From Polytrichum commune (lineage: Eukaryota > Streptophyta > Polytrichopsida > Polytrichales > Polytrichaceae), in assembly GCA_950295325.1 (NCBI GenBank), contig OX485807.1, forward strand, positions 32,461,666 to 32,525,665: a stretch of DNA of 64,000 bases, given 5' to 3'. Of the stretch, positions 6,862 through 36,284 are shown piece after piece; position 1 is the first letter of the stretch, and each line of letters begins with the position of its first letter. The notes beneath the pieces were generated by a model. The model had not been told where the DNA came from. It was given only the letters and a program-made list of their open reading frames with translations, and did no database searches. The position numbers and the translations under genes are program-made.

Positions 6862-8556
6862 CTGATGGATGCCAACATCAGGAATTGAAATCAGATTAAC
6901 ATCAGGGAAAGAAAAGAAAAAAGGCTCCAGTAATTAGCAGGGTAGTCTTACGTGATCCAAAGCTTTTGAGCACCAAAGGTGTTGGAGTTGGCACCCAAAT
7001 ATAAAGAATCTCCTCTTTAGTTAATAAATGTTTCCAACGAAAGTCTCATGGATATCAACATGTGATTAACCTACAGATAAAAGTCTTTTAAGTATAGTAT
7101 TCATTGTGCGTCCCAATGGAGCTGAGACATACACCAAAACATCAAGAATTGTCAGCACCCAAACATGGATTATACTGTCTCTGGTTAACATGTTTCCAAC
7201 AAAAGCTTGATGGATACCAACATGTAATTCATAACACAGAAAAAGTTATAACATTAAGAAGGGTAGTCCTGCGAAAACTTATAGAATCAGCGCCCAAACA
7301 CGAATTGTATTGTGTTTGGGTAACATGTTTCCAACAAAAATCTGATGGGTACCAACATGTAATTAACGGCACAAAAAGGTTACAACATCCAGTAGGGTAG
7401 TCCTGTGTGTAATTCTGAAGGACAGATGACATGCAAACAAACTTATGGAATAAGCACCCAAACATAGAGTATAGTGCCTTTAGCTAACTTAGGCATTGCT
7501 TTAGAAAATTTTAGGAGCAATTTAATTAAGGTGACTTTTTTAACCGCAATCGACAACGTCATGAAAACAGAACAAGTCTAGGTGACTCGATTGCACTCCA
7601 GTTCTGTAGATTGAATTGAGAAAAGATGATACCCCCCAACAGTATCACTTATAATAATACCATTCAGACTTGGTGAAAAACTGAATCACGATAATAACAG
7701 TAGTCTGTGTATCCGGAAGGAGATGAGACATACACCAAAAGTTATAGAATCAGCAACCACACATGAATTATACTCTCTTTAGTTATAAACATGTTTCCAA
7801 CGAAAGTTCGATGGATACCAACATGTAATCAACAGCATAAATTATATAAATATGGTCATCCTATCAAAACTTAAAGAATCAGCACCTAAACATGAAACAT
7901 AGTCTTTAATTTAACATTTTTCCAACGGAAGTCTGATGGAATATACCAACATGTAATTAAAAGCATGAAAAACCAAGTTGCAAAATGAAGTAGGGTAATC
8001 CCGTGTGTAATTCTGAACAGATGACGCGCACGAAAACTTATGGAATTAGCACCGAAACACAAAGTATAGTGCCTCCAGTAACTTCTGCATCGCCTGCGCA
8101 TGTAACACTACACTCGAGTAGCGATACAACATTGCAGTAGAGCATTTTAGGAACGTTTTAATTCAAGTCTTCTGACGTGTTGGATCTCAACTGATCAATC
8201 CACTCTCACCAATTCTGTCGCATAGTTGTATATGTGATCTGTAACTAACACTATATTCGTTATTTGGAGACTTTTTGTTAATTTTGAGACTATTTAAGGA
8301 CGTGGCTTTCACATTTATAGGAATGAAAACACTAAAAATATGCTATGTTCCCAATTTTGGAAACAAATAAGAGACTCAAATGCATGGAACTACACATTAA
8401 CAATAAGAAAATGGGATATATGAAAACATTTGCATATGGAAAATCAATATCATATTTATTGAATAGGGGTTGAAGTACAAAATGCAAGTGGAATATCCAA
8501 TATTAGGCGAAAGTCCTAGAAACATAATTCCACAACTACATGTATGTTAATATAGC
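6862..8556. repeat. Cluster of degenerate repeats
   Basis: From about 6960 to 8100 a unit recurs five or six times in imperfect form. It contains the phrases CAGCACCCAAACATG, ACATGTTTCCAACAAAAG, GATGGATACCAACATGTAAT and GTAGGGTAGTCCTGTG. Copies start near 6990, 7140, 7290, 7750, 7880 and 8040. A separate segment, 7541-7680 (CTCGATTGCACTCCAG, CTGTAGATTGAATT), recurs at 25555-25790 in the same orientation. Bases 8200-8556 are AT-rich with no gene recognised. The region sits upstream of the kinase start and may include its promoter, but no element was identified. Confidence 0.6.
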
Positions 8557-8904
8557 CTATACGTTCGGATCATGATTACGACTCACTACTTTTGCTTTTG
8601 CAATACTATTATTAGCATTTACGGCCGTTTCACGTTCCTTTGCTTTCATGGCCTCCATGGCTCTAAAGATCTCGGGTCCGCGGCTGTAACCTTGTTTATT
8701 TGTTGACCCCGAATATGCGCCATTTGCCCATATTTGCCGACCCCCTTCCGAATAAGTGGAATACGAATGCGTTTGGGAAACCGAACGTCTTGCACTCTTC
8801 CGTAGGGCCAAACAACGATCAGACTCGCAAGAAGCTGTCTTCAGTGTTCGCCTATCCAATGACGAAGTCGATGATGCCCGGCCCACATTCGTGTACATTG
8901 GGGT
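8557..8904 (-). CDS. Unrecognised coding exon, Ser/Arg-rich
   Basis: An open frame of about 115 codons ends in a stop at 8557. It begins after a good acceptor (ATTGTTCAG/ACC) rather than at a clear ATG, so it is probably a last exon. The product is rich in Ser, Arg and Ala (for example RSVSQTHSYSTYSEGGRQIW) and ends VVSRNHDPNV. No known domain was seen. It may be the continuation of the exon at 9453-9019, which can be joined in phase 0 through a weak donor (CAA/GTTTTT). That join is uncertain. Confidence 0.4.
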   Translation of the reverse strand, partial: TPMYTNVGRASSTSSLDRRTLKTASCESDRCLALRKSARRSVSQTHSYSTYSEGGRQIWANGAYSGSTNKQGYSRGPEIFRAMEAMKAKERETAVNANNSIAKAKVVSRNHDPNV

Positions 8905-9018
8905 CTGAACAATGACCATAAATATATATAATGAAGTGGGTTAGTATAAGTGGTTACAAGTTACGGATGGAAGTCCGAAAAACCCAAGAAGTTGAAATGC
9001 ACTAATACACGGAAATCA

Positions 9019-9453
9019 TCAAGGAAAAACTTGAGAATGCCAATAGTTGGGCACCTTCGCCTTTGGGGCGCTGGTTAGAGCTTTTGGGACATCGACGGGT
9101 GTAGATACAAGCCCGAGAGGGACGTTCGCAAACGCCGGGACATCAATTTGGGGTTCATCCATGCAAAGGCGTCTGGTCGACCGTGGGTTACGGACGTGCT
9201 TCTCACTGCGGAGGGGAGATGGAGATGGACTTGGAGAGTAATTGAGTTTTGCAACCTTTGCAGGAGGGCTATCCACGACTCCGTCTTCAAACCCGGAGTC
9301 TTTGGAGTAATCAACAGCAGAGGCAGCATCGACGGCCGAATATTGGAATAGTGAAGGCATTGCAACGTCGCTCATACCAAGGAAAAGGGAGCCGGTGTCT
9401 GCCTGAGATGCAGACATGCCATTGACGACACTTTTGGGTGCTTGGTGAGGCAA
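9019..9453 (-). CDS. Unrecognised low-complexity coding exon
   Basis: An open frame of 144 codons follows the acceptor TTTTGTGTCTTAG at 9454. The product contains an acidic and serine-rich stretch (DYSKDSGFEDGVVDSPPAK), a SPSPSPSP run and a proline/valine-rich tail ending NYWHSQVFP. It looks like a disordered nuclear-type protein; no domain was recognised. It lies 92 bases downstream of the HAD gene on the same strand, and may be either a separate gene or a further exon of the same transcript. Confidence 0.4.
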   Translation of the reverse strand: MPHQAPKSVVNGMSASQADTGSLFLGMSDVAMPSLFQYSAVDAASAVDYSKDSGFEDGVVDSPPAKVAKLNYSPSPSPSPLRSEKHVRNPRSTRRLCMDEPQIDVPAFANVPLGLVSTPVDVPKALTSAPKAKVPNYWHSQVFP

Positions 9454-9545
9454 CTAAGACACAAAAATACATTACAAAGATAAGGGGAGAAATGTTAGAT
9501 ATTTACATGGAGAGTCCAAGTACAAACCCAAAATCATCAAAGTTT

Positions 9546-10265
9546 TCATATTAATTTATTGAGTCTAGCGTAGCCGTACAATCTCCTAAATTCCTCATCT
9601 TGTGGGCCTAGAGGCCTATTGCCAATTGGGCTGGAGAGCACAAAATCCGGGACACTTCCGGGGTGATAGGCAAGCCTCCTAATGTAGGGTCCTAGTTCAC
9701 TCTCTAGAAAGTTGTCATTTCTATCGCTTTCCCAAGGATCCGGGAATATGCAATTGCCCGGGGGATTGAGAATACTCTTTGCCGGGCTGTCGTCAATGAG
9801 GAGTGTGTTATCCGGGGTGGGCCAACAACCGTGGGGAACCCCCTCCAACATAGGGACGCCCACCCAGAGGTTCTTCCTCAGGACCTTTAAGAATTGAGGC
9901 CCACGACCCCCTCCGACCTTGGGTACAATATTGCCACTACGGTCATAGAGGTCATCGCAGTGTTCTTGACCGAGAAGCAAGCATGGCATTGCGAGTTCTC
10001 GGAAAAGGAAACCGACAATGGCCTTCGTGTTGTCCATGAGCATAGAGCTCCAGATGATGACATGGGCGAAGCCAAGGACCTCACGAAAGAAGCTCCTCAA
10101 ACCGGGGCGGGCACGTACAACCTTCTTATTTATGAGAGTATCGAAATGTCCGCCGTAATCCATGTCTTGTGGACTACGGAAGGGCCCCTTGGACGCACTA
10201 TTCGAGATATGTTTGGATTGACAAAGCACCCCATTGAGGTCAAATATTATGAACGGTTTCATCAT
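9546..10265 (-). CDS. FCP1/SCP-like HAD domain protein
   Basis: A single 239-codon open frame starts at ATG 10265 and ends in TGA at 9546. It has the layout of the FCP1/SCP (NLI-interacting factor) phosphatases: FIIFDLNGVL (residues 5-14) in the catalytic loop, RPGLRSFF, VIIWSSM, and LLIDDSPAKSILNPPGNCIF near residues 155-175. The usual loop is DxDxT/V; here the second Asp is Asn (DLNG), as in a known subgroup of plant relatives, so catalytic activity is uncertain. Length and motif order are otherwise normal for the domain. Whether it is a host gene or cargo of the neighbouring element is unknown; no palindromes occur in it. Confidence 0.75.
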   Translation of the reverse strand: MMKPFIIFDLNGVLCQSKHISNSASKGPFRSPQDMDYGGHFDTLINKKVVRARPGLRSFFREVLGFAHVIIWSSMLMDNTKAIVGFLFRELAMPCLLLGQEHCDDLYDRSGNIVPKVGGGRGPQFLKVLRKNLWVGVPMLEGVPHGCWPTPDNTLLIDDSPAKSILNPPGNCIFPDPWESDRNDNFLESELGPYIRRLAYHPGSVPDFVLSSPIGNRPLGPQDEEFRRLYGYARLNKLI

Positions 10266-10608
10266 GGGCGCGCTTGGTTTTCCCGCGGGGTTGCGACATA
10301 TCTCCGACGGACCCTGTGATGGAACATTCTATCTAGGTAAATGGTACTACTCAAGAAAACCAATTGACAAGCATGGATAAACTCAACACAAATTATAAGG
10401 CCAAAAATAATCCGAACCATCCAGTTGAAAAATTGGTATTAATGTAATTGGTGATATACATTTGGTGAATAATATACATTGTCGCAAAAAATATCTGTTG
10501 AAGTTAATGGAATCTATGCTAACAAAATTGTATCCACCCGCCGGGCGAAGTCGAGGATTGAACTCGATAATATACACACGCCACGAAGGAGGCAGACAAG
10601 GAAGTTTT

Positions 10609-10732
10609 GGACGCGCGTCCGTAACGTGGGAGGCATGCTCAAAGGTTGATTACCTCTTCAAGGGCGAGGTCCGCGCCAGCAGTGCCTCCCTCACCTGGCC
10701 CCGTCATGGGCACAGGATCCGGACGCGCGTCC
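10609..10732. repeat. Two palindrome cores at the 3' end of the DGQH gene
   Basis: The core GGACGCGCGTCC occurs at 10609-10620, just past the stop codon at 10639, and at 10721-10732 within coding exon 3. At the second site it encodes part of FADARPD. Both have shorter symmetric arms than the upstream copies. Confidence 0.75.
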
Positions 10733-13700
10733 GCAAAATTGTCCAGATCTTCGACCACCAACAAGGTGTCTCCAGCCGTTTGCGACCCTTGAGTATCCAC
10801 GTAAGGCTGATCCTCATCTGTGGAGTCTTGGCTGCCCCGCATATGTACATCTTCATCGCCGATGGGGGCATTGCCTTCATTGACATCTGTCTCGGCGGCA
10901 CCCGCCATGTCACGTGCCGGTATCTCCTCCACTCCTGTAGGATGAGAGGAGGGCTCCTCTGGAGTGGCGACAACAAGGGGAGAGGGCGGGACAATCAACG
11001 CGGGGGCTGGATAAGCATGCTCGGGTATATACACCGCATGGCTACTAGACGGAGGCCGCATGAGAGTGGGGGGCATAGACATGACGGCATCGGGAGCTGT
11101 ATAGACTACAGGGGGTCTTGCCTGCAAGCTCTGCATCAGGCTCATAAATTGTTGACTTTGGGCCAAGAACTGTTGATTTTGGGCCATGAGATCGGCGTGC
11201 CTTCGAGCAGACTCCAACCTAGCTTGCTCCATCTCAGCTTGGATGGCGGCCATCTTTTTGGCGTGCTCCTCGTTAGCTTCTCGAAGCCGTTGGTCAAGCT
11301 CTTCCTTCATTCGCCTCTCCATCTTCTCGTCCAATTCGGACACTGACATCGGCTCTTTCTTCACCTTGCCAGGTTCCGTAGGCAAGGCAGAGATGGCATT
11401 GTGAATCCTAATCTCATCCTCGTCTTCATCGGAGAGCTCCAAGACCGCGCCTTCAGGGTATTCGTTGTATGGCGTCTTGTTCCTCTTTCGTCGACTCTCA
11501 CGATATAGAGAGATATCAGGCCTCAATATCAACTCCAGCACATCCCTCCCCTCCATAGGGGGTAGATCTGAATGTTGAGATCCCCCTCCAGATGAAGCGG
11601 TGCATCCGCCTTCTGCCGCAAGGTCCACATCCTTCTCGGCCATAACTCCTGGAGCACGAGATGGACCCGCAGTTGAGGGAAATCCAACTCGAGAGGTGGG
11701 AGTCCCAAAAGGTGAGAGAACAGGGGTATGAGGGACCCTTATCGGAGTGAAGTTCACGCGTGCCTCCTGCGCATCCGTGTCGTCTGTTCCCAGCAGGAAA
11801 GCACTTGGATTAATTGGGTCGCGAACAAGGCCGTGTAAAGGCTCCTGTGTGGAGGGTTGCGCTCTTGGGGAACTGGGATCTTGGTCCTCTTCAGGGTCTG
11901 TCTCCATTCCGGGCATTGCCTCTTCTCTAGAAGAAAGAGGCACAACAGGATGGGGTGTAAGGACGTCCATGATGTCCTGGATATCCATTTTGGAGGCCAT
12001 TACCCTGTGAGTATGGGCGTCATCGTAGTCGGAATCCTGCACAAAAGAATTCACCTGCAAGCCAAGCATCTGGACCATAACAAGAAAATTAGATAAGAAC
12101 AATAGTGGTGATTGCATATAAATGAGGCTAGATGTCAACACGTTATACGGACGCGCGTCTGTAAAACCACCACTCAAAAGTTGGACAATTTTACGGACGC
12201 ACGGTCGTAAAATTCACATGCACTTGATACTGGGTTTTTACGGACGCGCGTCCGTAAAATAACTATGCAAAAGATAGGTGGGTTGAAAAACAAACAAATA
12301 CTCACCAGTGCTGCATACATAAACTTCGTGCCTCCGAAGACGTTGTAAACTGTCTCACTCATGACAGTTAAAGCCTTCAAGACCCCTATATAAAAGTCCA
12401 TCCGGAGCTCGAACGCCGGATAGATTGCATGCATTGTCTCCTCAACAAGCTCCTTGGGATGTGGTGGCGGCAACGAATAGACTTTCCTGAACACCTCGTG
12501 TGGTTTAATGGGCAATCGCCCAGTTGGGGAAGACTTGCGTGTTAAGAAATAAAGCTGCACAGCTCCCACTTGCTTCACCCCCCTTGCCTCTTGAATGAAA
12601 GTGATCCCTTCTGTCTTCGCTGGGATGTAGGTGCTGTGGTACATATCGTATTCGAGGTCCATCGTTGATGTGTACAGATGGACAATGGATGTGGACCTCT
12701 CTTGCTCTACAATCCATAACCACACATGAGGCTTGAAGAGGGCAGGCGAGCGATAGCTCTTGAAGGCTTTTAAGAAGGGCTCGTAGAAGGGTGCTCCCGC
12801 AACGTCTTGCTTCCATGCTCCGGGAATTGCACGAAAATCAAAAATGGCGAAAGGGCAACCCCTGGGGTCATCTCTCACAGAGGCTCTTGAAGCATGGGTG
12901 TCCCATGCGCCGAACTTCATGCCCTTTGCGACCGTGCAGAATCTTGCAAACCCTCCAAATTTCGCGTTCTTTTTCCTATCGAGAAAGTGAACATACAACC
13001 CTGCCTCCCTCTCGTCGATGGATCCCTTCTTTTCGTTCCTTCTGGATCGTTGGGCAAGGAAGGATGATGCCCCTCTTATCAAAGCTCGCATTGAGACGCC
13101 ATTGATGTGGTATTCACCCTTCAGCTTCCTCCAATTCTCCCACACGATCTCACCATCACTATTAATGAGGTTGTGGGTGGGTAGCAATTTGCTAATCTCC
13201 CTTACAGCCATGGTCTTCTTCTTTCTGTAATCGCACCATTCCTTAATGTGGTACGTGGATGGCTTCATGTGCTTCGGCCGCTTCAGAAAGATTTTGGGAT
13301 AGGGCAGAGTTCTTCTAGGAGTTTCTAGAAGAATGTGTTCTGCTGCCCTGTACAGCTCCGAGTCCATCAATCCTTGGAGGGGACGAAAGAACTCTCGCAG
13401 GATTGGTGGTACCTTAACTTTTGAGTCGCTCTTGTAGGTGTTCTCCGTATCTGGATTGACAAGGTCGCCGTTGTTGTGGGCATCGAAAAGTCGCAACCAT
13501 ATTGACCACGTCTCTTCTGTTGCAGTGATGAGCTTGAGTTCGCCTTTTAATTCATGCACTGTTTTCATGCCGCTTGTCTTCATGTCTATACTCGAGAACT
13601 TTGTCAATATGGCATTGCTGAATGTCTGCAAGAGGCGCGAATTGCAAGAAATCAGAACATTGAATTCAGTACAAATTAAATTCAAATATTTGAAGCAGTG

Positions 13701-15047
13701 GGAGGAGAAGGGCCACATTTACGGACGCACGTCCGTAAATCTATTTGAGTAACATACCTGCCATTTTGGGTTCTTCACGACAACATTATCTCTTTCTTTT
13801 GGGGGACATTCGTGCTCCACCCACAAGGTCCTCCCAGCCACGATGTTGGCTGCCCATGAAGCCTCGAACTGCCTCACTTTATTCCCCTGGTTCATGAAGG
13901 CAGATATTGCTATGAGTTGGTTCGAGTCCTTGGAATGCACGACGAATGCCTTCCAATATCGGATTGTCTCCTTTAATGGGCTTTTCCACTCGTCGTCTTC
14001 AAGGAGAGCTTTTGCAGCCATTACACTATGTTGGCCGTCGACAATGTAGAACTCTCCATTCTTGAGAATCGGCCAATTTTTTTCGTTGACTTCAACGATA
14101 GGATCCTTTGGTGTCACACAAATGGTTTGCCTGTCAAACTTGGGGTTGTTCATGATGTTGTTCATTTGCCACCATACACCGCTTTCTTCTTTTGCTCTGG
14201 TATTCATACTTTCGGTGCCCTTGTGGCATTTGTAGACGTCTACTTCGAAAGTAAAATACCTGCCAAGGGGCCAGCATCCCTTCGTCTTCTCATCGAACTC
14301 TTGGAATATTTTTGTTGAGAGTTCGGCGTCAGGGCGTTGACCCTTTTTGAGGAGTGGAGCGACAGTCAGTGTAGAGCTGACATCCGGACCCTCTGTTAGT
14401 CCAGAGTCCATCTGCGAGTGAGAGCGTTTACTCGCCTGTCTGCTCCCTCTTGATGCACCACTCTGCGAGGGCCTTGAGGATTCCGGCACTGGTTTAGGCA
14501 CACGCTTAGGTCGTTCAGGAACGACTTGTTTTTTCTTATCTTTCCCCTTTCTGGCCTCTAGCAAGGCTCCATTTACTCTTGTTACATTGTTCAAGAGTCG
14601 TCCAAGCCGCTTACCCGTCCAAGGTGCATTGCATGCATAGTCTTGGAACTCCGTCTGGAGATTGAAGCAAGCCGCATCTGTACTAGCATTCTCACACTCA
14701 TTTTTGTTGAAGGGGTGGTAGGATTCGTGCAAAATGAAAGTGACCCGATCTTCTTTCTTCTCAAGGTCTATTACTACATAATCCCCTTGTGCCACTGCAC
14801 ACTCTACTGTCCACGATTTAAGCTTTATCCACTTCTCAGCTTCATCTATGTCCGTCTTCATTTGATATGCAAATCTAAGCACAAATATTTCTTTCTCGTC
14901 CTTTTCTACCAATACTGTCCAATTATCCACAATTTCATCTTGTGGCTTGTAATGGTCGTTGGGACTTATGTCTTTGATGGCTTCTGGTAGCGGAGGAATG
15001 AGAGCTTCTGCGAACATCTCAATTGCATGTCTCTTTTTAGATGCCAT
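10639..15047 (-). CDS. Large three-exon gene with DGQH (ParB/Srx-like) motif and coiled coil
   Basis: Exons 15047-13758 (430 codons), 13625-12306 (440) and 12069-10639 (476 plus stop) join in phase 0 with clean sites (CAG/GTATGT, CTG/GTGAGT, acceptors CTCTTGCAG and GGTCCAG). They give 1,346 residues with no break. The ATG at 15047 directly follows an acceptor-like TTTGCAG, so a 5' UTR intron is likely. Residues 165-210 are Lys/Arg/Ser-rich and NLS-like. Residues 330-346 read NGEFYIVDGQHSVMAAK, resembling the DG-x-HR motif of ParB/sulfiredoxin-fold and DGQHR (DndB) proteins, but with Ser in place of Arg. Residues 1060-1068 are basic, 1105-1110 (KVKKEP) fit a sumoylation site, and 1115-1184 form a heptad-rich coiled coil ending in a Gln-rich stretch. 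The C-terminal tail is acidic. Palindromes lie in both introns, and one lies in coding sequence near 10727. Function is not known; the ParB link is inference from a short motif. Confidence 0.8.
12146..12259. repeat. Three palindromes in intron 2 of the DGQH gene
   Basis: 12146-12168 and 12187-12214 are imperfect copies of the ACGGACGCGCGTCCGT palindrome. 12236-12259 is a perfect 24-base palindrome with TTTT/AAAA arms. They lie between donor 12305 and acceptor 12070. Confidence 0.85.
13717..13740. repeat. Palindrome in intron 1 of the DGQH gene
   Basis: This 24-base palindrome has ATTTACGG arms and only the centre pair mismatched. It starts about 17 bases inside the intron, just after the donor at 13757. 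Confidence 0.85.
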
Positions 15048-15101
15048 CTGCAAATGATAAGATAGATAAGTTAGAATTCTTGGCAAAAGATATAGATCAT
15101 A

Positions 15102-15247
15102 CTTTACGAACGCGCGTTCGTAAAGTTTTCCAAATTGTCTCAATTATATTTTTGGATCCAAATGAAAAGATACATTTCTTCCAAATACGCATAACGCGTA
15201 TATTATATACTCAAATATCTCTATAAGTTACGGACGCGCGTCCGTAA
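15102..15247. repeat. Two palindromes just upstream of the DGQH gene start
   Basis: 15102-15127 is a perfect 26-base palindrome whose core is ACGAACGCGCGTTCGT, that is, with matched changes on both arms. 15228-15247 is a perfect 20-base palindrome with the standard core. Both lie within 200 bases upstream of the ATG at 15047, so they could be regulatory sites. Confidence 0.85.
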
Positions 15248-15369
15248 ACTTCGCAAAGATAGTATGGTGGTAAATATCAATGTATTCAAGTTACGGTTAA
15301 TATTTTTTTGAGAGTCTTGTTTCACACCTACATTTTTGAGAGTCTTGTTTCTCACCTACATATATTTTT

Positions 15370-15840
15370 GAGAGTCTTGTTTCTCACCTACACAAAGATC
15401 CACAAAGTTTACGGACGCGCGTCCGTAAACTTTGAGTATTATAAAGGCTATTTTAATATGCCTAATATTACAATATTTGGCTTCGTTTGCGTAATATATT
15501 GTTTGAGAGGCTTGTCTCTCACCTACCCAAAGATCCACAAAGTTTACGGACGCGCGTCCGTAAACTTTGAGTATTATAAAGGTTATTTTAATATGCCTAA
15601 TATTACAATATTTGGCTTCGTTTGCGTAATATGCGGTTTGAGAGTCTTGTTTCTCACCTACACAAAGATCCACAAAGTTTACGGACGCGCGTCCGTAAAC
15701 TTTGAGTATTATAAAGGCTATTTTAATATGCCTAATATTACAATATTTGGCTTCGTTTGCGTAATATGTTGTTTGAGAGGCTTGTCTCTCACCTACACAA
15801 AGATCCACAAAGTTTACGGACGCGCGTCCGTAAACTTTGA
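15370..15840. repeat. 135-bp tandem repeat, each unit centred on a 32-base palindrome
   Basis: Units start at 15370, 15505, 15640 and 15775, the last truncated. Each carries a perfect 32-base palindrome at the same place (15403-15434, 15538-15569, 15673-15704, 15808-15839), spaced exactly 135 bases. The arms extend the core with CAAAGTTT and AAACTTTG. Partial units without the palindrome occupy 15308-15369. Open frames through the array, which encode a repeated VYGRASVNF on either strand, are by-products of the palindrome. Position upstream of the DGQH gene suggests an upstream control region. Confidence 0.9.
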
Positions 15841-15889
15841 GGATTATAAAGGCTATTGTAATGTTTGCGTATTCCAATGTTTTCATTAA

Positions 15890-16440
15890 TGCTCCGTGTT
15901 TTTCGGGACTTTACCTTGTCGTCCAATATGGTTTTGCCCTCCAAATAAGAATGCAATTTTACTTCACTGCAATAGCAAACACTGCACTGCAGATTGACAA
16001 CATAAGGCACTTTCAGAACACTGACATGTCCATAACTAAATGATTCTTAGAATGTAGCCATAGACAAAGTACTAAACAAATTCAGAATTCCTTGAAACTG
16101 GAATCTCACATTCTGTCATGCTAACCTTAAGCCCTAAACCACAACAACCCAAAATTGCAATCATACAAAATGCAATTGCAATGTTCTAAAAAACTTACCT
16201 TTCTAGAGTGTTTGCTCCTAAACCACAACTAGCTGCTCCTGCTGCAGCTAATACCAACTGCAAATGAACAATAAAATTGAGGTCAGAAACCTCTAGTAAT
16301 TCAATGTGCACATGCATGATTCAACATTGAGAACTACTCAAAAAAGTTGCTCATAAATCAGATTCATGCAACACAAGTGAAAGGAAACTATTGATTTGTA
16401 TGCAAAAAATATAATGAACTACATGGTGAAGCTACAACTG
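15890..16440. other. Upstream region of the DGQH gene, no gene seen
   Basis: No coding sequence was recognised. A strong donor-like motif on the - strand (AGAAAG/GTAAGT near 16198), together with the acceptor at the start codon, would fit a spliced 5' UTR of the DGQH gene reaching this far upstream. That is inference. Confidence 0.35.
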
Positions 16441-17130
16441 AAACCCTAATGAGCAACATCTGAAACACTAATTACCCTTGCAACAACTGAGATCAACAAC
16501 TGAAAACAACCTAATGAGCAGTAGCAAGCAACAATGAGCATCCTAATGATCTAATGAGCAGCAAGCAAGCAAGCAGCAAGCAAAACTTACTAATGAGCTA
16601 ATGAGCTAATAAGCAAATGAGCAGCAAACAAGGAGAACTTACTCTAGCTCTGACGCGCGTCAGCAATTGACCAATAAGAATGAGTTTTGCATTGTGAGGA
16701 AAGAGAAGCAAGACCAGCAAGGGAAGCAAGAGAAGAGAGAGAAGAAAGTGAAGATAAGGGTAAGAAGCAAGAGAAACAAGAGAAGAAAGTGAAGAGAAGC
16801 AAAAGAAGCAAAAGAAGATGAGCAGATGAGCAAGAGAAGATGAGAAGTTGAGCAAGAGAAGATGAGCAAGAGAAGAAGAGTAGATGAGCAAGAGAAGATG
16901 AGCAAGAGCAGATGAGCAAGAGAAGAAGAGTAGATGAGCAAGAGAAGATGAGCAAGAGCAGATGAGCAAGAGAAGATGAGCAAATGAGCAAGAGAAGCAA
17001 GAGCAGATGAGCAAGAGAAACAAGAGAAACAAGATAAACAAGATAAACAAGAGTTGCAAGAGAAGGAAGCAAAAGCACGAAGAGGAGGGCAAAAGGGAGC
17101 TGGTGTACTTTGAAACCCTATAACCCTAAA
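16440..17130. repeat. Purine-rich low-complexity minisatellite
   Basis: On + the sequence is a run of GAGCAAGAGAAGATGAGCAAG-like units in variable order (16800-17045), with looser GCAAGCAAGCAG and AATGAGC units before it. Long open frames on - here (Leu/Ser/Phe-rich) come from composition. A 14-base palindrome CTGACGCGCGTCAG sits at 16650-16663. About 65 bases at 17065-17130 (AAAGCACGAAGAGGAGGGC onward) are repeated at 17180-17245. Confidence 0.8.
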
Positions 17131-17179
17131 GCAAGAGAAGCAAGAGCAACAGTAGAAGGAACGGAAGGAAGAGATGATA

Positions 17180-17345
17180 GAGAAGGAAGGAAAAGCACGA
17201 AGAGCGAGGGCGAAAGGGTGCTGGAGTACTTGGAACCCTAAAACAATGGCGTGCCTCCACGTGTCCCTACCCCAAACGTCGCGCCCAATCGCCGGCCTAT
17301 ACCCTTACGTGGCATCACCCTACTGGTCTATATTTGGTATTGAAA
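17180..17345 (-). promoter_or_regulatory. Possible promoter for the DGQH gene
   Basis: On - this GC-richer stretch contains a TATATAGACC-type box near 17330, a G-box-like CACGTG near 17260 and TTTTAGGGTTCC near 17240, followed by pyrimidine-rich sequence. The order suits a plant promoter and 5' UTR driving the gene that starts at 15047. There is no direct evidence for transcription. Confidence 0.3.
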
Positions 17346-17874
17346 TAGGGGTTTAATTTATACTTAGTTTGGTGATTTTATTATCATATTATGTCATAAT
17401 AACATCTTATGTTTATGCTAAGGCAAGTTAAAAGTCACACTAAATGTCACTCTAAATATAAAATGAGCCATCTCGTTGCCTCTTCTCTTCACTTTTGATA
17501 ATGAGTGAAATATTCATACAAGCTCTAGAAAGTATTCATTATTTTAGGAAATTATATTAGGGTGTGAGGTTGAGTAAATTATTATGTCATTGTCAACAAT
17601 TAAATGACATCAATAATAATAATAATATCATTTTGGAACTCCAAACAATGAGAGAAACTAACTACAATTTCTAGTGTGGCCTCTATGGAGAGTGGGGGAG
17701 CACCTTTCATTAAAACCTAGAATCACGTGCGTTCACTGCATACTCTAAAAACCCCCTAATATATACAAGTGATTTTTTGTGAAATGAAGTAATACACATA
17801 CAATTGCAACAATAAATATACAAGCAACAATATGTATACACAAAAAAACATCCATTCATATATATTAGTCATTA

Positions 17875-18194
17875 CTCGGGGGGGCAGTGTGTTAAAAAAA
17901 TAAGGATATAGGGGGGTATTACTTTCAATTCTCTTATTTTTTTTCACATGCTATCATTATATAAATTTCTACTTTGGGTTAATAGAAAAATGGCTTGCAT
18001 TACTTATAATTCCAAATTACCAATTATTCCATACCCTATACTACTTTAAAGATGTCCAGTGCCATTTTTGATACCCTATATTACTCTTAAGTCCATTTAT
18101 AAATTTTTGCCCCCATGTTTTTAAAATACCCTATCATTTGTTTGCACGTATATTGCTACTCCAACCAATGACTGCCCCCCCCCCCCCCCCCGAG
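17875..18194. mobile_element. hAT-like MITE with 8-bp TSD
   Basis: The 320-base element begins CTCGGGGGGGCAGT and ends in the inverse, where the C tract has grown to 17 (18175-18191). It is flanked by identical 8-base repeats AGTCATTA at 17867-17874 and 18195-18202. Eight-base TSDs are the mark of hAT transposons. It has no coding capacity. The interior has repeated TACCCTATA phrases. Confidence 0.85.
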
Positions 18195-18202
18195 AGTCAT
18201 TA

Positions 18203-20440
18203 ACATAAGTATACAAATGCAATTATTGTCTCGAAGTCTACCATGGAATGATCAATAAGATCATATGTCCACTTGTTGTTAGCCCCTTTTGATACCAACA
18301 TAAACCAATCTCCACGTTTGATGGACGGTCCATCAAGTCAAATGGATCCCTATACTCCACCCAACGATTACCAAACTTCCTCCGCATCCTATAAACTCTC
18401 CCAACAAACCAAACCTTATGAAAACTTATCCAATATGAACACTTATGATATATAGTATAGTAACAATACCATACAAGTACAATTATTCTATACTTTTTAA
18501 AGGCCTTCCATATATGTACGTAACTATAAATTATAACATGTATACCATATGTATATGCAATACGGCAAGGTCCAAATCAATACCCCTCCTGTGCACTCAC
18601 GTATAACTCGTACATGTTTAGTACAGTGCACCCCCCGAGCTATGGAGGGGACTCTATATTTCGAGAATAGTAATAATATTCAATAAAAGGATGTCTTGTT
18701 GATTAACTTCAGTATAAGAATTCTTTTTCTTCTCAAAGGTGGGATTCAAATGCAATTGGGGCAATATACCAATTGGCCACAAATTCTCATGAAACTTTGC
18801 CAAGAAATACTTGTGAATCCCTCAATTATCGCAATAAGTTGTGAAACGCAATTAACAAAACCGAAACATCGAGATATGGGGAGAATTCATATGCTTGTAA
18901 TACCTTAAACAACATTACGGATTAATTCAATCCCTCCACACATAGGTCTAAGCTTGTATTAAAACAAAATGCATGGGTATGTGTTGAATGTACATCCCTC
19001 TTGTACATTAAACAACCTTTCGGATCCATCCAATCCTTCCACACATAGGCCTCAGCTTGTATTATCGCTTATAAGTAGTAGCAAACTTGTTTATATTTGG
19101 AGTTTTCTTTCGGTGGTGAGTTGTGTTTAGGACTCGATTATAGAATACCAATATACGATCTTCAAAACCTTTCATCAAAAGTATATGTTTAAAGCAAATG
19201 GTTTAAAGCCAAAGAAAGATTTAAAAAAATGAAAGGTAAGGTTACCCCTAAATTTGCTTCACATTTGAAATGTTTATGGTTTTATTTTACAAAATTTAAA
19301 GGTAGTCATATAGTTTTGAATTACTTCCACTTAAGGCTACACATGTATTGGGAGTTATTCAGTTAACCATGCGTACCGTATGTCGTTGTGTTTGTTCAGG
19401 GGTGGGCGGTTATAGGGTATAGGATATAGGGTATAGGGTATAGTGTTTAGGGTTTAGGGTTTAGGATTTAGGGTACCACGTATGAACTAATGAGAGTATC
19501 CCCCTTCTGTCACCAACTTAAAATTGCTTGCCTTTATAATATTTGGATACCCTACCCTCCCCTTCTCTCCATTATGGTTTGTTGGGCTCATAATGTTACT
19601 TAGAACAACAACTGCTATTGTTTGAGTCAATATTGTAGATAATGTACATGGGGTACTAAAAATTGTTTTTTGTCTCACGTATAGTACATTAAGAATGCTA
19701 GTATTATTTTTTTTGAAATAAATGTTGATGTATTGAAGGGGGCCCTAAAGTTAAGAGAGGAAATTGAGAATATTGATTTTAAAGCAACCCATAGTGCCTA
19801 TGACAATAGATGTGCTATTTTCATGGCATCTAGGCGCTCAAAGTTTGTGTACGTATTAGTATAATTATGTATAGGTGTGTAAAAGTGGGTAAATTAAACG
19901 GGTTGGATGGTAGGGTGGTGGCAAATGTAATTACTAGTTTAAATGCTAGATGAGAGGAGATAACATGATATTGGAGTGAATATCATTACATCGTATGCAA
20001 AACAATAAAATAGATGCTAGTTTAATTTTGAATGACACGTATTTTTATACTCCATGTACTATTGTTGTTGTTGTGGTTGATGTTTCACACGACACTATAA
20101 TTTTCTGTCTCCTAGTTCTACAATGACCTCTCAATATTAGGTACTTCAATATTATAAACCACCCCTCAACAATGTTCAATGCTCATATATTATTAGCCTA
20201 TTTTCTTTGTTGTCCACCATAAATACGTAGATGCCTTTTGCTTTGTCATTATGTGGACTCATCGTCTATGCATGTTGTCCACTATGAATACACATTCCAT
20301 TGTAAGGCTGGCACACGGAATGTAGTAATGTTAGGTTTTTATTTATAGGACGTAGATGGTGGCTAGTATCCTATGTTGGAAAACGGATCCAAGGGAAACG
20401 ATTAGTACTTAAGGGGACACCCCTCCACCAAGGGACTCTT
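18203..20440. other. AT-rich region with interstitial telomere repeat, no gene
   Basis: Mostly AT-rich sequence with no recognised gene. At 19411-19475 there is a block of GGGTATA-type repeats passing into GTTTAGGGTTTAGGG, the plant telomere repeat, with degenerate edges. It is an interstitial remnant, not a chromosome end, because unrelated sequence follows on both sides. Confidence 0.7.
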
Positions 20441-20640
20441 TTTGCATCTCAGATGTGGGTTGCGCTGCTTGGACCCTTGTAGTGTTCTGGATGTTTATTT
20501 CGTGCAGGTACAGATCCTATTGCAATGGACCTTTTATACCCTAAACACTAAATTCCAAGCCATAAACCCATTAGTGGAGCCAATTTTATGTGGATTGCAC
20601 TGTCTGGATCCTTATAGTGATTGATTTTTGTTTATGGCAA
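20441..20640. repeat. Two-copy degenerate tandem repeat
   Basis: Phrases such as ATGTGGGTTGCGCTGCTTGGACCC...TAGTG near 20453 recur as ATGTGGATTGCACTGTCTGGATCC...TAGTG near 20588. It lies directly upstream of the palindrome array on the + side. Confidence 0.55.
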
Positions 20641-20687
20641 GTATCGTTCTTGGTGAAATGGTCCTATTATGGCGCCGCAAATCACGG

Positions 20688-20903
20688 AGGTTTACGGACG
20701 TGCGTCCGTAAACCTTAAACCTCTTGCTTGGTTGGATATCTATTTCTGTGAGAATTGCACTTGAGCTATTTCATGTACATTGAGGTTTACGGACGCGCGT
20801 CCGTAAACCTTAAACCTCTTGCTTGATTGGATATGTATTTTTGTGAGAATTATACTTGAGTTATTTCATTTACATTGAGGTTTACGGACGCGCGTCCGTA
20901 AAC
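20688..20903. repeat. 95-bp tandem repeat with palindromes upstream of the DUF7869-type gene
   Basis: Palindromes at 20688-20715 (28 bases, centre pair mismatched), 20783-20810 (28 bases, perfect) and 20880-20903 (24 bases, perfect) are spaced about 95 bases. The intervening sequence (CTTGCTTGRTTGGATATSTATTT...GTGAGAATT) is also repeated. The arms here read AGGTTTAC/GTAAACCT, unlike the CAAAG arms in the other array. This mirrors the array upstream of the DGQH gene. Confidence 0.9.
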
Positions 20904-21060
20904 TTTTGCACCTTTTTGTTCCATTGTTCGGTATTGCACCTGAGCTGACATCATGACCACTTGCCATGTATAGTATACCAACGAGACTGTATTGTCATGA
21001 AAATTTTCTGACTCACGTCCAGTAACCTAAACCTATTTGTGCTAGTAATGAGGTACAGAG

Positions 21061-21545
21061 AGGTTTACGGACGCGCATCCGTAAACCTGCAAACCTTTGG
21101 TTCCATACTTTTTACTATGTGCCATGTAGAATATTACATTGAGACTGTACGGTCAATGGAGGTATAAGATCCCTAAACCCTAAGCTTACATCACCCTATG
21201 TGTCATAGTATAATATTTTGACATTCATAATACACAGTAGGAACCTGGCACCTGGACATCTTGGTTTCCTAAACCTCTGTGTGTCTTGCACAACACTGAC
21301 TTTTGACATTCGGATGTTTGCGGACGCACGTCCGTATACCTATGTTGTATAGTTTGCGAAAACATTTGCGCATGATATTGACCTCTTTGACCACGAAGAG
21401 ATTTACGGGTGCGCGCCCATAAAACTGTCATGTTTTTGTTGTCTGGACCTTTCCGCCGACTATGAACAAATAAAGACATATGTATGCGCGTGCTTGCACT
21501 GATAATGTTGTTACATGGAGATATACGTACGCGCGTTCGTATACC
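21061..21545. repeat. Degenerate palindromes close to the + gene
   Basis: 21061-21088 has one arm mismatch (GCATCC for GCGTCC). Looser copies occur near 21316 (GCGGACGCACGTCCGT), 21411 (ACGGGTGCGCGCCCAT) and 21523 (ACGTACGCGCGTTCGT). They continue the series up to about 140 bases before the coding start. Confidence 0.75.
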
Positions 21546-21684
21546 AATGTGTCTTTGTTTCCAGGCCATGAAATCCACTATTGTTGACATTGTGTTTCAT
21601 TGACAATAAGCGTTAGGACTATCCATGACATTTATTGAATGGGATATTTTGACATACTCTTCATGTGGGTCACTTGTAGTGGCC

Positions 21685-24600
21685 ATGGATTCCAACGTCC
21701 GAGATAGTGCATTCGAGTTCTCTTCGGAAGCGTCAAGCTATGCTAGCGAATTTGAAGGTGTTATGGAACATGAAACTACAATTGGTGTCGCCAATGCAGA
21801 GGATGATTTCATACCAACATGTGAGGGTTATTCGCGGGAACAATGGATTGATCTTGATGTTGTCATAGTCAATGGATACGGCGTCCCCGTGGCCAATGGT
21901 GTTTGTAGGAACTCAAATCCTATGGACTGTATTGATGCAAATCCCCTTGGGGAGGAAGATGTTGGGGTGTGCATTTTGAACTCCTTACATCCATTGGAAG
22001 TACCTCCTGGTTGGAGATTCTCTCTTCGTCGATGGCCGTTGCGAAGTGTTCTTCACGATGGTGTCAGCTTGTGGAATCATGCACGTCGTTTTGAGGAAAT
22101 ACAAAAGACTTTGTTCGCCACAATGCGTCATAGACAAGGTCGGCGTAAATATGATTCCGTTCGCGTGCCCCGTGAACCCACGCAACGTCGTCGAGATCTA
22201 ACATTGGGAGACACATCTATTAGGTCCGTAGCAACAAAGGATTGTTGTGCAAAAATGTGTTGCCAACTATTTCCCCGTGACAAAATCAAATCTTTGAGAC
22301 AAGAGATGTGGCTTGCGGACTTTCGGATGCGATCTGCAAAGAAACTTGAAGTCCATCGCAACATGCACTTTGATGCCGAAGGTCGTAAGGTTGTGACCTT
22401 GGAAAATATAGAGGTATGCTGCACGGCATGGTACATTATACATGCAGTTTCAAAGGCAGATTTTTATAGGTTCCGGAACTACTCGCTGCAAGGACGGCGT
22501 TCTCGGTTCCATGGCAACTCTGGTACAAAGAAGCCCAGGGAGGCAACACTCCAAGCAGCTGCAACACTATCAACCATCATTATGCCATTAGCAGATGCGA
22601 TGCCACACAAAACACGGACTCTGCCGTCGGGGGAAAAGGTTGTCCAGATGGTTTTGCCTACAGGGACAAAATGGAAGAGCATACTTATGGATGTTAATGA
22701 GGTTGGTGAAAAGGCTGGATGTGGGCCGATTTCGTTGTCAAAATTGAGTGTGATCAAGAATCAACAATTTGCAGAGTACATTACGAAGAGGCCTGGGAAT
22801 AAGTTTGCCAGGTGTTCTGTTTGTGAAAAATACAAGGGCCTTCGAGATGCACATCCCATAGGGACTGAGTCGCACAATAGACATCAACGGAAATACATTG
22901 AGCATGTCAACAACCAAGAGGCACACCGTCAAGACTACTACAAGAATCGCGCATTATCGATAATGAGGCCGAATGAGGTTTTGACAATCATTCATGACAA
23001 AATGGACCATGCGAAGACTGCGTGCCCTTGTTATGCACGGAAAATAAAGGCTACAGATGGATATTTCAAGCTCCCAATATCTGTCACAGGTTCGTTGGTT
23101 TTCACATTTTTTTTGCGAACCCACATACTCATCGTTAAGAGTTACGGATGTACATCCGTAAGTGTTTGTTCATTTTCTTGGCCTGCTTGCGGAAAAATTG
23201 AATTTCCTTATTATAAATGATATTGGAATGTACTTCTCATTTGTATGTCTTAATTCAGGTATGATCGCACATGGCCATGTGGACGTCAAGTATGCACATT
23301 ATGGCTTGGATTTCTATCCAGGCGACGCCAATCATACCGTAGGGTCTTTTGCAAAACTTCTACGAGATCTTGAGAGTCCGCCAACATCATCCTCTCGCGC
23401 TCTTTTTGTTGGATGTGGAACAACACCGATTTATGAGGCTGTGCTAGAGGGGAAAGAAGTATGTCTATCGTCACTGCAAGAACCGCCTGAACAAACCGTT
23501 CTTGCTAAACCTTTGCCTCCAACTCTACATGTGCAACTGGACAATTGTGCCAAAGACAACAAATGTCGATACGTGTTTTGTTTTTGGTCATTGCTCGTAG
23601 CCAAGGGCATTTTCAAAGAAGTGTTTGTGTCTTTTTTGATGGTTGGCCACACGCATGATGACATTGACGCTTCATTTGGACGTTGGAGTATGAAGTTGCA
23701 CGAGGAGGATTTTCCGACGATTCCTCTTCTCATGAAATCATACATGGATTTGGATAATGTGCCAGTCATCCCGCATTTGATTGAAGAAGTGCCCGATTTC
23801 AAAGCGTTTATCGAACCATTCATTCTTAAGGGAGGTGACCGTTTAGTGGACCATACCAAGGCTCAACAATTCCGATTCTATATGCGTGATGATGGTTTGC
23901 CGGCCATGCAATTCAAAGTTTTGTGCACTTCCCCGGATTGGGGTCCAGAGGAAGGGATACTCGTATGGCGCCAAAACGAAGAAGGCAAATGTATGCTACC
24001 TGATGGGGAGCCGAAGCCTTGCAAACCCAACCCCATGAGGAATGGACCAGAAATCATCAAAGGTATATCCGGATTCATCCAATATTGGAAAGAATTGTGC
24101 GAGGAAGACATCACAAGGCGTGTTCGGGATACCCACGAACCATTGATTACGTACTGGGATCGCATTCGCTCAGCATTGCTAGCACCCGATGTCGAAACAC
24201 ATTCATGTTTGACACAAGGTTTTTGGCCACAAAGCCGAGTGACAATCGTGGAATCTGAGGCCATGTTCTTCGACAATGGGGACATCCGTGAAGAGTTCGC
24301 AGCGGACGACCATTATGTTGGCCCAGCTCGTAATCGTCCGGCTCCATCATTTCGTGTGGCTGTTGATTGCTACGAAGGGTATATGATCCTCGTACGTCCT
24401 GGAGATGAGGAGCACCCTAAACCGATTTGGTTGGTAAAAGCATTGTCATCACCAAATTTTGTTCCAACTAGCCCAAATTTTCATCAAATTGAGGTGGAAT
24501 ATTGCCGTCCCAGCACCAAAGATCAAAATGTGCTCCGCACATATTTAGGGTGGGACACCAAAAAGGGTTTCAAATGGACAATGGACTCAGCATACGAACC

Positions 24601-24781
24601 AATATGGATAAACACAGATACCATACTTTGTGCTTGGAAACCACGCAAAGGTTCCAAATCAGAGACAATGACCATCCCCCAAAAACATATAGATTTTGCC
24701 AAAGACAACTTGGCACGTATTGCTGCTGCAGAAAACGATGTCGAGAATGGAAATGAAGCTGAAGATGAAGATGGAGAATGA
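21685..24781 (+). CDS. DUF7869-type transposase-like protein, two exons
   Basis: Exon 1 ends at 23089 (GTCACAG/GTTCGT) and exon 2 runs from 23259 (TTAATTCAG) to TGA at 24781, joined in phase 1. From ATG 21685 the product is about 975 residues; an in-frame ATG at 21625 would add 20. The C-terminal half has HVQLDNCAKDNK (Asp at about 563) and, 35 residues on, FLMVGHTHDDIDASFGRWS (about 594-612). This D-N-C/NK ... GHTH-x-DID layout is typical of the DUF7869 family of transposon-linked proteins, which I take to have an RNase H-like DDE-type core; that fold is inference. Exon 1 carries Cys pairs (CCAKMCC, CSVCEK, CPCYARK) that could bind zinc, and the tail is acidic. The intron holds a palindrome at 23142-23161. 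The reading frame is intact. It faces away from the DGQH gene and shares its palindromes. Confidence 0.8.
23142..23161. repeat. Compensated palindrome in the intron of the DUF7869-type gene
   Basis: TTACGGATGTACATCCGTAA is a perfect 20-base palindrome. Its centre, ATGTACAT, replaces the usual ACGCGCGT with matched changes on both sides. Confidence 0.85.
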
Positions 24782-25800
24782 TATTGACGTAGGGTTGGAC
24801 CACAATTATTTGAAATGTGTCTTGGTTTTTCATGAAATATATGACATTGGGGTCGAATACTATATTAGACACATTTTATAGCAATTTTATAGATTACAAT
24901 TATATATCATGATTGTATTGATTTACGGATGTGGAATCCAACTTCACATGCGCTATCAAATGTTTTTTATATGTTTGTGTTTACGGATGTGGAGTCCAAA
25001 CTATATAATTATATTGCAGATGCTAATTTGCAATTTCTTATACACACTGTCAAATTATTTTAATATTGTTGCGTTTGGGATGTGCCGTTCAATTCACCCA
25101 CAATTGGCTAAGATGTTATGTTTGGGATACGCATCCAAGAGTCCCTAGATATAAAATCAGATGGCTATTTATAGATTCATTAATTTTGTTCAATACAAAA
25201 TCAAAAATACAAAATAATTGTGAATTTGTGACATTGGAATATTGTGTTGGCGTAGTTTTGATTATCCCCCAAATAATTACTATATTTAGAAACATATATA
25301 TTCATCACATATGGATCTTTCGAACATTATGTTGCCATTGTTCCCCATGTTCCCTACGTTCACAATATTCGCATCCGAAACTACGGGTCCAATTTATTTT
25401 GAGACTTTCCAAAGTCTCCAATTAACGAATATAGTGTTAACTCCTAGCGTGTTATATAACTTACAGAAAGTTATGATTCATCTGTTTGCTACTTTGATCA
25501 CATGTTGGTTTATTAGCACAGAACGAAATGCATTTATTACACAACAAGGAATTAACCACAATCGACGACGTGCTGAAAAAAAATAAAAAAAATAAAGACG
25601 AGCTGGTAACTCGATTGCACTCCAATACTGTAGATTGAATTAGGAAAAGTAAAGCTGATCTAGTGTCCCACCAGTACCATCTTATAGCAACTTTTTTATT
25701 TCTGGTTTTCATGGATGTTTCAGAGTGTGAATCTGCGAGGAAAAAGAAAAAAACCAAAAAAAAGCTACAATTCAAACTTGGTGATGCGAAGGACTAAACC
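24782..25800. repeat. 3' flank of the DUF7869-type gene: half palindromes and a dispersed repeat
   Basis: TTTACGGATGTGGAATCC near 24922, TTTACGGATGTGGAGTCC near 24979 and GGGATACGCATCC near 25125 resemble decayed or half copies of the palindrome. 25555-25790 matches 7541-7680 (CTCGATTGCACTCCA, CTGTAGATTGAATT) in the same orientation. No gene was recognised. Confidence 0.5.
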
Positions 25801-35216: not shown

Positions 35217-36284
35217 CTAAGACGTCTTGCCACAGTTTTTCCCTTTTGCTCCAAGGAATTTTTTCTCTCGAAAAAGGCTAAACCCCCTGCCATCATTGAT
35301 GGCTTGCAGCACTAGCAAAGCCACAATTGGGTGAAGTGTTCCAGACTTCAAATATGTTTTCAATGCTCGGACCCTACCCACGACTTGATTTAAATCTGCT
35401 AGAAGATGCTCCATGAGGACAATGTCCCCCGTGACTTCTTTAGAGAGGTCTATAACCAATTGCCTCAAAGCTTCGCCGAGATCCTTTGACGAAACACTGG
35501 TCCGAACCGGAGTTTGCTTCGGGGTACATACCGGGGCAGTGTCAGGAGGAAATTGTGGATGACGAAGCGGTGTAGAAGGGGTGAGGAGTTCTCTCATACC
35601 ACCTATGACGGTTCCAACATGTTTGCCATAGAAACGTGCAATTGTACCCTCAACAATATCCGGTCGAAGCATGAGCAGGACCTTCACAACATGCTTACAT
35701 ATATTCCCCCGTTGTACCCAAACACATTTACACCCTGCCCATTCCTCTGCAGGATTATGCACAATGTATCTAATGTGTCGGTGCTCGGAAGAAGTCACTA
35801 AGGCATGGTTCCCTGGAAGCACATTCAGTGTCACGTCAGCATCTGGAATGTCACTTGCCTTCATCAGTGCTGTGACTACAAAATTTTGCATTTTTTTGTT
35901 GTCTACAAAACCATTTTCTTTTCGAAGGCCCTTATACAAGAAGTGGTCGTGCACTTCTTCCGTAAGAGCAGTAATAGTCCAATCTACACGTCTTCCAACC
36001 ATGCGACTTCTCTCTGATTTTAACATTGACTTTAAAAACCCATGGTACCCTTCAATAGCTGCATTCGTGTCCTGGCCAACATAAGGTAGGTTCCGGTAAC
36101 CTACCACCCACATGTGAGCCTTACTTTGCCATTGCTTTCGCATGTAATTTCCTACCAAGAAAGCCATCATCATGTTTGTAGTTATATGTTTTTCTCCAAT
36201 AGGCAGCCATGCATGTGTAAGTATCAACTCTGTTGTATTTTGAAATTGCGAATGGGTTATTACATCAGTTATAGTTCTGTTCAT
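35217..36284 (-). pseudogene. MULE transposase, C-terminal part with SWIM finger
   Basis: An open frame of 355 codons. From about 36146 downward it encodes YMRKQWQSKAHMWVVGYRNL, TNAAIEGYHGFLKSML and the SWIM zinc finger CKCVWVQRGNICKH (CxCx9CxH), all typical of MULE transposases. The N-terminal half with the first two catalytic Asp residues is absent. The first 46 residues lie inside the right arm. No break after that. It cannot be a full transposase. It resembles the C-terminal part of the decayed gene at 43284-46452. Confidence 0.8.

Follow-up and report, generated by a model that had tools for sequence, protein, structure and literature searches.

Genes, palindromic sites and ends of the element

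We analysed a stretch of 64,000 nucleotides of the Polytrichum commune genome (contig OX485807.1, positions 32,461,666 to 32,525,665 of the forward strand; this whole stretch is called the window), in which two divergent genes, named D and T here, and a family of palindromic sites lie together in a mobile element. Gene D, on the minus strand, was predicted by conceptual splicing of three exons (15047-13758, 13625-12306 and 12069-10639) and would encode 1,346 aa with a DGQH motif at residues 337-340, in exon 1, which recovers the 1,346-residue DGQH-motif gene that the initial annotation had described on this strand. Gene T, on the plus strand, was predicted in the same manner from two exons (21625-23089 and 23259-24781; 995 aa) and matches the Pfam family DUF7869 (PF25273, in exon 2) with an E value of 8.3e-39, in agreement with the earlier proposal of a DUF7869-type gene divergent from the DGQH gene. 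As regards a possible DDE/RNase-H transposase, T also displays the conserved D-rich (aspartate-rich) motifs LDNC..DNK and GHTHDDID. No sequence match to T exon 2 was obtained in the PDB, and a literature search conducted mostly without subscription papers found no paper describing DUF7869.

A mismatch search with the palindrome ACGGACGCGCGTCCGT returned 18 matches with up to 3 mismatches, all between 10607 and 21540, the rest of the window being free of them (100 shuffles gave an expectation of 0), and 21 matches with up to 4 mismatches, which added positions 16649, 21405 and 23144. Two sites lie at 10607-10734, one just past the D stop (10607) and the other in the last coding exon of D (10719); three are found in D intron 2 (12147-12255), one in D intron 1 (13721-13736), six upstream of D (15106-15831, four of them within a 135-bp tandem repeat) and six upstream of T (20694-21540, the first three 95 bp apart, with a seventh, decayed, at 21405), and the T intron holds the exactly palindromic variant ACGGATGTACATCCGT (23144-23159). 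All these sites are given without strand. This distribution confirms a family of about 20 palindromes located upstream of both genes, in the three introns and at the 3' end of D, as had been reported from the sequence at first reading.

Comparing the window with three copies from other places revealed sharp ends common to all four, which define the element as positions 8247-25438 (17,192 bp). It is bounded by terminal inverted repeats (TIRs) at 8247-8274 (plus strand) and 25411-25438 (minus strand), of which the first 16 bp, AACACTATATTCGTTA, are identical at both ends and are followed by imperfect similarity, and it is flanked by the target-site duplication (TSD) AACT at 8243-8246 and 25439-25442 (no strand). 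The boundaries 10600-24790 given by the initial annotation, which had found neither terminal repeats nor a TSD, were therefore wrong and left out some 2.4 kb at the left end and 0.65 kb at the right end.

We then considered the host assembly (408 Mb), in which a 26-nt TIR end occurs as 218 exact copies (109 forward and 109 reverse; control 0). Among 100 TIR ends listed, 50 form 25 pairs within 45 kb and the other 50 are unpaired; 17 of the 25 pairs span 16.5-17.9 kb, 21 enclose a listed D and 12 a listed T. An exact 4-bp TSD was present in 16/16 copies read at both ends, namely 14 copies (15 end pairs, less the pair L019/L020, which was dropped for lack of its right end), a gene-less derivative, X1, and a decayed copy, S5; these 16 TSDs are 80% A/T. 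For empty sites, the flanks of six copies were joined and run as one query, the best 40 of 2,396 candidates being scored: the joined flanks of a copy of subfamily S2 match 38 places at 91-100% identity and those of copy F match 2 places at 92%, with an uninterrupted junction in both cases, and the other four copies were hardly covered among these 40. The S2 copy (G000:C7:26.04 Mb) is itself inserted in a member of another young repeat family, of which at least 38 uninterrupted members match at 91-100%.

Both genes are abundant in the assembly, with at least 88 matches to T exon 1 (87-100% identity) and at least 98 to D exon 1 (76-100%), and an internal stop is absent from 66/88 of the T exons and 47/98 of the D exons listed. 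A copy of D lies within 40 kb of 67/88 T copies and within 12 kb of 62/88, which excludes that the two genes never co-occur elsewhere, and the divergent order seen in the window is found in 61 of these 62 closer pairs. The T-D distance is 5.8-7.2 kb in 51/67 pairs, and 6.5-6.8 kb in 30 of the 67. Long blocks aligned between the window and copies B and E are 98.3-99.6% identical, and 51 of 72 single-copy differences are C>T or G>A, as would be expected for methylated DNA. Altogether, the window region is one copy of a young, high-copy TIR (cut-and-paste) DNA transposon, and the view that a single mobile element lies here, put forward before its ends were found, is supported by the sharp common ends, the repeated co-occurrence of genes and palindromes, and the pairs of occupied and empty sites.

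Beyond D and T, a third gene-like region (8557-10328) belongs to the element. It consists of an open reading frame (ORF) resembling NIF / CTD phosphatases (9546-10328, minus strand; PF03031, E 2.6e-12) and of two open frames on the same strand (8557-8940 and 9019-9453) that have no Pfam match above the cut-off and may be exons of the NIF-like gene. Ratios of non-synonymous to synonymous substitution rates (dN/dS) were computed against subfamilies S2 and S3, differences inside the window's own subfamily being too few. D exons 1-2 are under purifying selection, with dN/dS values of 0.08-0.12 (exon 1: 0.08 against S2 and 0.09 against S3; exon 2: 0.09 and 0.12, with one stop here in S3), and the values are 0.26-0.33 for D exon 3 (0.33 and 0.26, respectively), 0.13-0.17 for T (exon 2: 0.13 and 0.14, with one stop here in S3) and 0.18 for the NIF-like ORF against both subfamilies. 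At synonymous positions, D exons 1-2 have diverged far more (dS 0.84-1.62) than T (0.18-0.35) and the NIF-like ORF (0.20-0.42), indicating that the history of D differs from that of its neighbours; D thus seems to have been exchanged between elements as a cassette.

Half-site types and lineages of gene D

The palindrome has inverted half-sites on either side of a 2-bp centre, TACGGACG being the half-site in the window. Its exact form occurs 1,097 times in the genome (reversed control 0), and 49 of the 50 copies listed are no more than 20 kb away from a listed gene or TIR, the 50th being in a decayed copy; the even spread over the genome that would have spoken against a link with the element is thus not seen among the 50 of 1,097 copies that could be placed. 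The core TTTACGGACGCGCGTCCGTAAA is kept in subfamilies S1 (the window lineage), S2 and S3, although most of the spacer between D and T no longer aligns. Perfect arms reach 28 nt in S2 (element position 6971) and 23 nt in S3 (7415), far beyond the common half-site, a local lengthening of the palindrome for which we have no explanation.

Five half-site types were found in this one genome (TACGGACG, TACGAACG, TTCCTCTCG, CACGGGCG and TTCACTCG; control 0 for each), all arranged as ...CG-NN-CG... so that a CG adjoins the 2-bp centre in every case. Their relation to the two genes is best seen in S4, a related element in which D exons 1-2 match those of the window at 43-53% of the amino acids, D exon 3 at 31% and T at 71-85%. 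The right-end TIR core of S4 is identical to that of the window (a left TIR was not found in S4), yet its sites are TACGAACG-NN-CGTTCGTA. With T and the TIR little changed and both D and the half-site changed, the site follows D, not T or the TIR. It would accordingly be very unlikely that the sites bind T or a host factor while D has another job: the T of S4 remains close to that of the window and shares the right TIR core but accompanies another site, and five half-sites in one genome are beyond what one host factor would read.

A more distant lineage, represented by S6 and X3 (D 24-27%, T 41-50%), uses TTCCTCTCG-NN-CGAGAGGAA, with 146 exact copies carrying the centre GC (control 0). Sites are located upstream of both D and T and between D exons in S4, S6 and X3. 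In X2 (L046/L047), which has a D of the TACGAACG lineage and a full set of sites, these are located between D exons and upstream of D; no T match was obtained in the 18 kb of X2 that were read. The sequence TCACGAATATCGTGTG was considered as a possible end of the TTCCTCTCG lineage and was rejected, as the same sequence runs on past it in both copies.

We had noted beforehand the prediction that an inverted repeat specific to the lineage, present in several copies and almost unconstrained at its centre, would be found near D in each further D lineage. Such an inverted repeat was found at 4/4 further D loci and in 0/6 control stretches: CACGGGCG-NN in 14 copies, TTCACTCG-AT in 9 copies (where the centre is not free), and TACGAACG-NN in 18 and 24 copies. 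The half-sites are new at two of these four loci, the two TACGAACG loci being closely related to X2 (94-97%). Each D lineage has one half-site in the 11 D loci read, and among the 11 D sequences, pairs with the same site are at least 82% identical and pairs with different sites at most 78%, which leaves a narrow gap. This difference between D lineages was not visible to the initial annotation, made from the window alone. Genome-wide, CACGGGCG sites number 232 and TTCACTCG sites 237 (control 0), and proximity to D, meaning within 20 kb of a D copy listed on C1 and C2 at 53% identity or more (zones that cover less than 1% of C1 and C2), was observed for 47/50 listed of the 146 TTCCTCTCG sites and for 50/50 listed of the 237 TTCACTCG sites.

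Sites of the form TACGAACGNNCGTTCGTA (TACGAACG-NN-CGTTCGTA) occur 4,680 times in the genome (control 0). In the 100 of them listed, 13 of the 16 possible dinucleotides are used at the centre and 91 centres are not self-complementary. This free centre indicates that the constraint is on the two half-sites, as for a protein dimer. A loop would also tolerate a free centre if the palindromes acted as RNA or cruciform hairpins (for example as sources of siRNAs or as splicing signals) instead of protein sites, and such hairpins would fit with the long perfect arms of S2 and S3 and with the variants at 15106 and 23144, which are changed symmetrically on both sides. We nevertheless judge hairpins to be highly improbable, given that the letters of the half-sites are largely fixed within an element, not merely complementary, and that outward symmetry is down to background within about 4-11 bases in 7/8 sets, the remaining set, X1 with its tandem repeats, showing fluctuations. 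Rfam gave no match in the window.

Possible roles of D and its sites

The model that we favour, with about an even chance of being right, is that of a large autonomous cut-and-paste transposon with two separable lock-and-key pairs, T with the TIRs and D with the internal sites, in which the role of D is most likely anti-silencing. T, a putative transposase, would act on the TIRs and make the 4-bp duplications, and a D homodimer would occupy the internal sites, each made of a half-site, a 2-bp centre and a second half-site. We infer that D binds the sites of its own element as a dimer, with an anti-silencing effect: its cover on the sites would most likely keep the element free of host silencing, or otherwise expressible, and D would serve gene-less derivatives in trans. 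The job of D would then resemble that of VANC in the VANDAL elements of Arabidopsis, carried out through an apparently unrelated gene and an inverted-repeat motif. Anti-silencing is our first choice since the distribution of the sites (upstream, in introns, in tandem arrays and family-specific) matches that of the VANC21 target motifs, which, in the available parts of the source, occupy introns and the upstream region of the transposase gene, in many cases as tandem repeats, with a 9-mer in same-orientation arrays (PMC5735166).

The site clusters directly upstream of both divergent genes would also fit with a D limited to the autoregulation of D and T, as a transcription factor or repressor, the intron sites then acting as enhancers. 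This appears quite improbable in view of X1 (C1:639070-648560; 9,491 bp), a derivative with window-type TIRs and the TSD CATA: X1 has no tblastn match to D or T (E 1e-3) and yet carries 44 sites (3 mismatches at most; 0 with the reversed pattern as control; flanks free of sites), which is more than the coding copies read. The retention of sites without D or T suggests that the sites are useful in cis even without the genes. An internal 1.3-kb piece of X1 has at least 33 matches at 97-100% identity, itself included, among the best 40 of 264 candidates; ends and sites were read in X1 only, of these 33.

X1 and the repeated matches to its internal piece also support the main rival to anti-silencing, in which D would be an accessory protein of transposition, comparable to TnpA of maize En/Spm, that assembles the transposition complex on the internal sites, so that gene-less copies would need the sites for jumping. 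TnpA sites are subterminal, while the window copy is without subterminal sites, the nearest being at 2.36 kb from one end and 2.28 kb from the other, and sites cluster upstream of the genes and in introns. An accessory role is, in our opinion, rather unlikely. In the decayed copy S5, zero exact sites are left and many CG have turned into TG or CA.

Several observations weigh against an anti-silencing D dimer on its sites. The rate of CpG changes at sites (1/166 CpG bases) is not clearly lower than elsewhere (13/1,062), so that this comparison gives no clear sign of protection from methylation. A free 2-bp centre is seen in the TACGAACG lineage alone; most centres are CG in S1 (14/19), S2 (14/20) and S3 (17/25), CACGGGCG sites have only AA, TT or AT there, and AT is the centre of 50/50 listed TTCACTCG sites. 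Since D and its sites travel together, their correlated divergence is partly expected without binding, and transposition or autoregulation would be equally conceivable functions of the internal sites. Finally, D has no sensible significant match in Pfam, NCBIfam or the PDB, and a single-sequence AlphaFold prediction of one D domain reached a pLDDT of 31.6, which is unusable for assigning a fold.

The D motif, [IV][DN]GQH, lies inside a conserved block, and GQH is invariant in the alignment of the 11 D sequences, the next residue being S or T and never R. It is reminiscent of the DGQHR and GmrS proteins, one branch of the ParB/Srx fold, as presented in the available parts of its description (PMC4619093). 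DGQHR has R where D has S or T, and profile matches of D stay below significance (ParB-like phrog_1033, E 0.019; DUF6551, E 0.056; GmrSD_N, E 0.061). D may have a ParB/Srx-like fold, of which this motif and these weak matches would be hints. A genome search for GmrSD_N found none. Other candidates were rejected: a bacterial toxin component (seven PDB sequences, E 0.003-0.005), whose alignment with the DGQH block is without the GQH motif and is taken as chance; a UPF protein (one PDB match to the same block, E 0.44), also taken as chance; histone H3 for exon 2 (PDB profile matches of E 0.19 or worse), again chance; and a degenerate amino-methyltransferase with an FGG motif, likewise for exon 2 (hhalign against YhdJ plus 24/50 viral relatives, P 0.29), which was not supported. 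Searches for relatives confirmed none for D exon 1 or T exon 2 in viral contigs, and found none for D exon 1 in phages or for D exon 2 in plasmids.

Palindromic sites are common to this element and to ParB-parS systems, parS being a palindrome bound by a ParB dimer. D might be a nucleoside triphosphate (NTP)-dependent dimer of the ParB/Srx fold that loads on lineage-specific palindromes, spreads and excludes silencing, so that D plus its sites would form an exchangeable address cassette, a proposal that we regard as unlikely. The central CpG pair would possibly read methylation, and the cassette would be independent of the transposase and the TIRs, allowing many mutually insulated lineages to coexist in one genome. 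If true, this would be a eukaryotic transposon superfamily with its own ParB/parS-like device.

Coming back to the anti-silencing model, the element resembles VANDALs in being an autonomous DNA transposon with a transposase gene (putative here), a second gene and a family-specific motif in its non-coding parts, and differs from them in its motif, an inverted repeat with a 2-bp centre instead of the same-orientation 9-mer of VANC21, as far as the available parts of the sources go (PMC5735166; PMC10398659). Neither a VANC domain nor a Mutator-type transposase was found, D being without a Pfam family above the cut-off and T being DUF7869. The presence of TIRs and 4-bp TSDs is also unlike VANDALs, which belong to the Mutator-like elements and have longer TSDs and no TIRs. 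To our knowledge, transposons that encode a protein directed to their own DNA through a repeated motif have been described in few cases.

The ends of the element resemble those of Sola2, for which the available text describes 4-bp AT-rich TSDs, short TIRs and one transposase of 888 aa, and mentions no D-like gene or site family (PMC3627910). The 4-bp AT-rich TSD and short TIR are both found here, T has 995 aa as compared to 888 aa, and the transposases were compared by description only; Sola2 may thus be considered as a candidate superfamily, on the description of TSD and TIR. Fungal transposons with TET/JBP genes likewise combine a DNA transposon with a second gene of likely epigenetic role, and differ in the gene, in the host group and in that no palindromic site family is mentioned in the portion available (PMC12730594). 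A literature search on Sola2, VANC, ParB/DGQHR, moss transposons and element-encoded site proteins, with subscription papers mostly outside it, gave no description of this element among the entries listed.

Within a single genome, five or more types of site share one syntax and, at the loci read, are each paired with a D lineage of their own, and a gene-less derivative has retained its sites. This system offers natural swaps for testing the evolution of sequence-specific anti-silencing or transposition control and ready, predicted protein-site pairs for work on recognition codes, and it ties DUF7869 to a concrete element with ends and a TSD.

Spacer and window outside the element

The spacer between D and T (15901-20650; no strand) holds no recognised gene, is mostly unalignable with S2 and S3, and has an observed/expected CpG ratio of 0.41; the site at 16649 in it is decayed. 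Its positions 17907-18190 match the left flank of copy E (L002 1959-2241) at 94.7% and probably represent a dispersed repeat within the element. The spacer is also purine-rich and of low complexity at 16640-17300, and a run of telomere-like TTTAGGG repeats lies at 19415-19475.

At 15356-15910 of the window and in X1 (L044/L045), frames through the site arrays give recurring peptides such as VYERPFVNV and VYGRASVNF, which are a trap for gene prediction. Outside the element, two ORFs of the window (35217-36293 and 43779-44483) both contain a GYRNLPYVGQDTNA-type stretch. The second has no match and the first has weak matches, below the cut-off, to Rhomboid (E 0.009) and to a SWIM zinc-finger (E 0.034); both ORFs resemble remnants of Mutator-type transposases.

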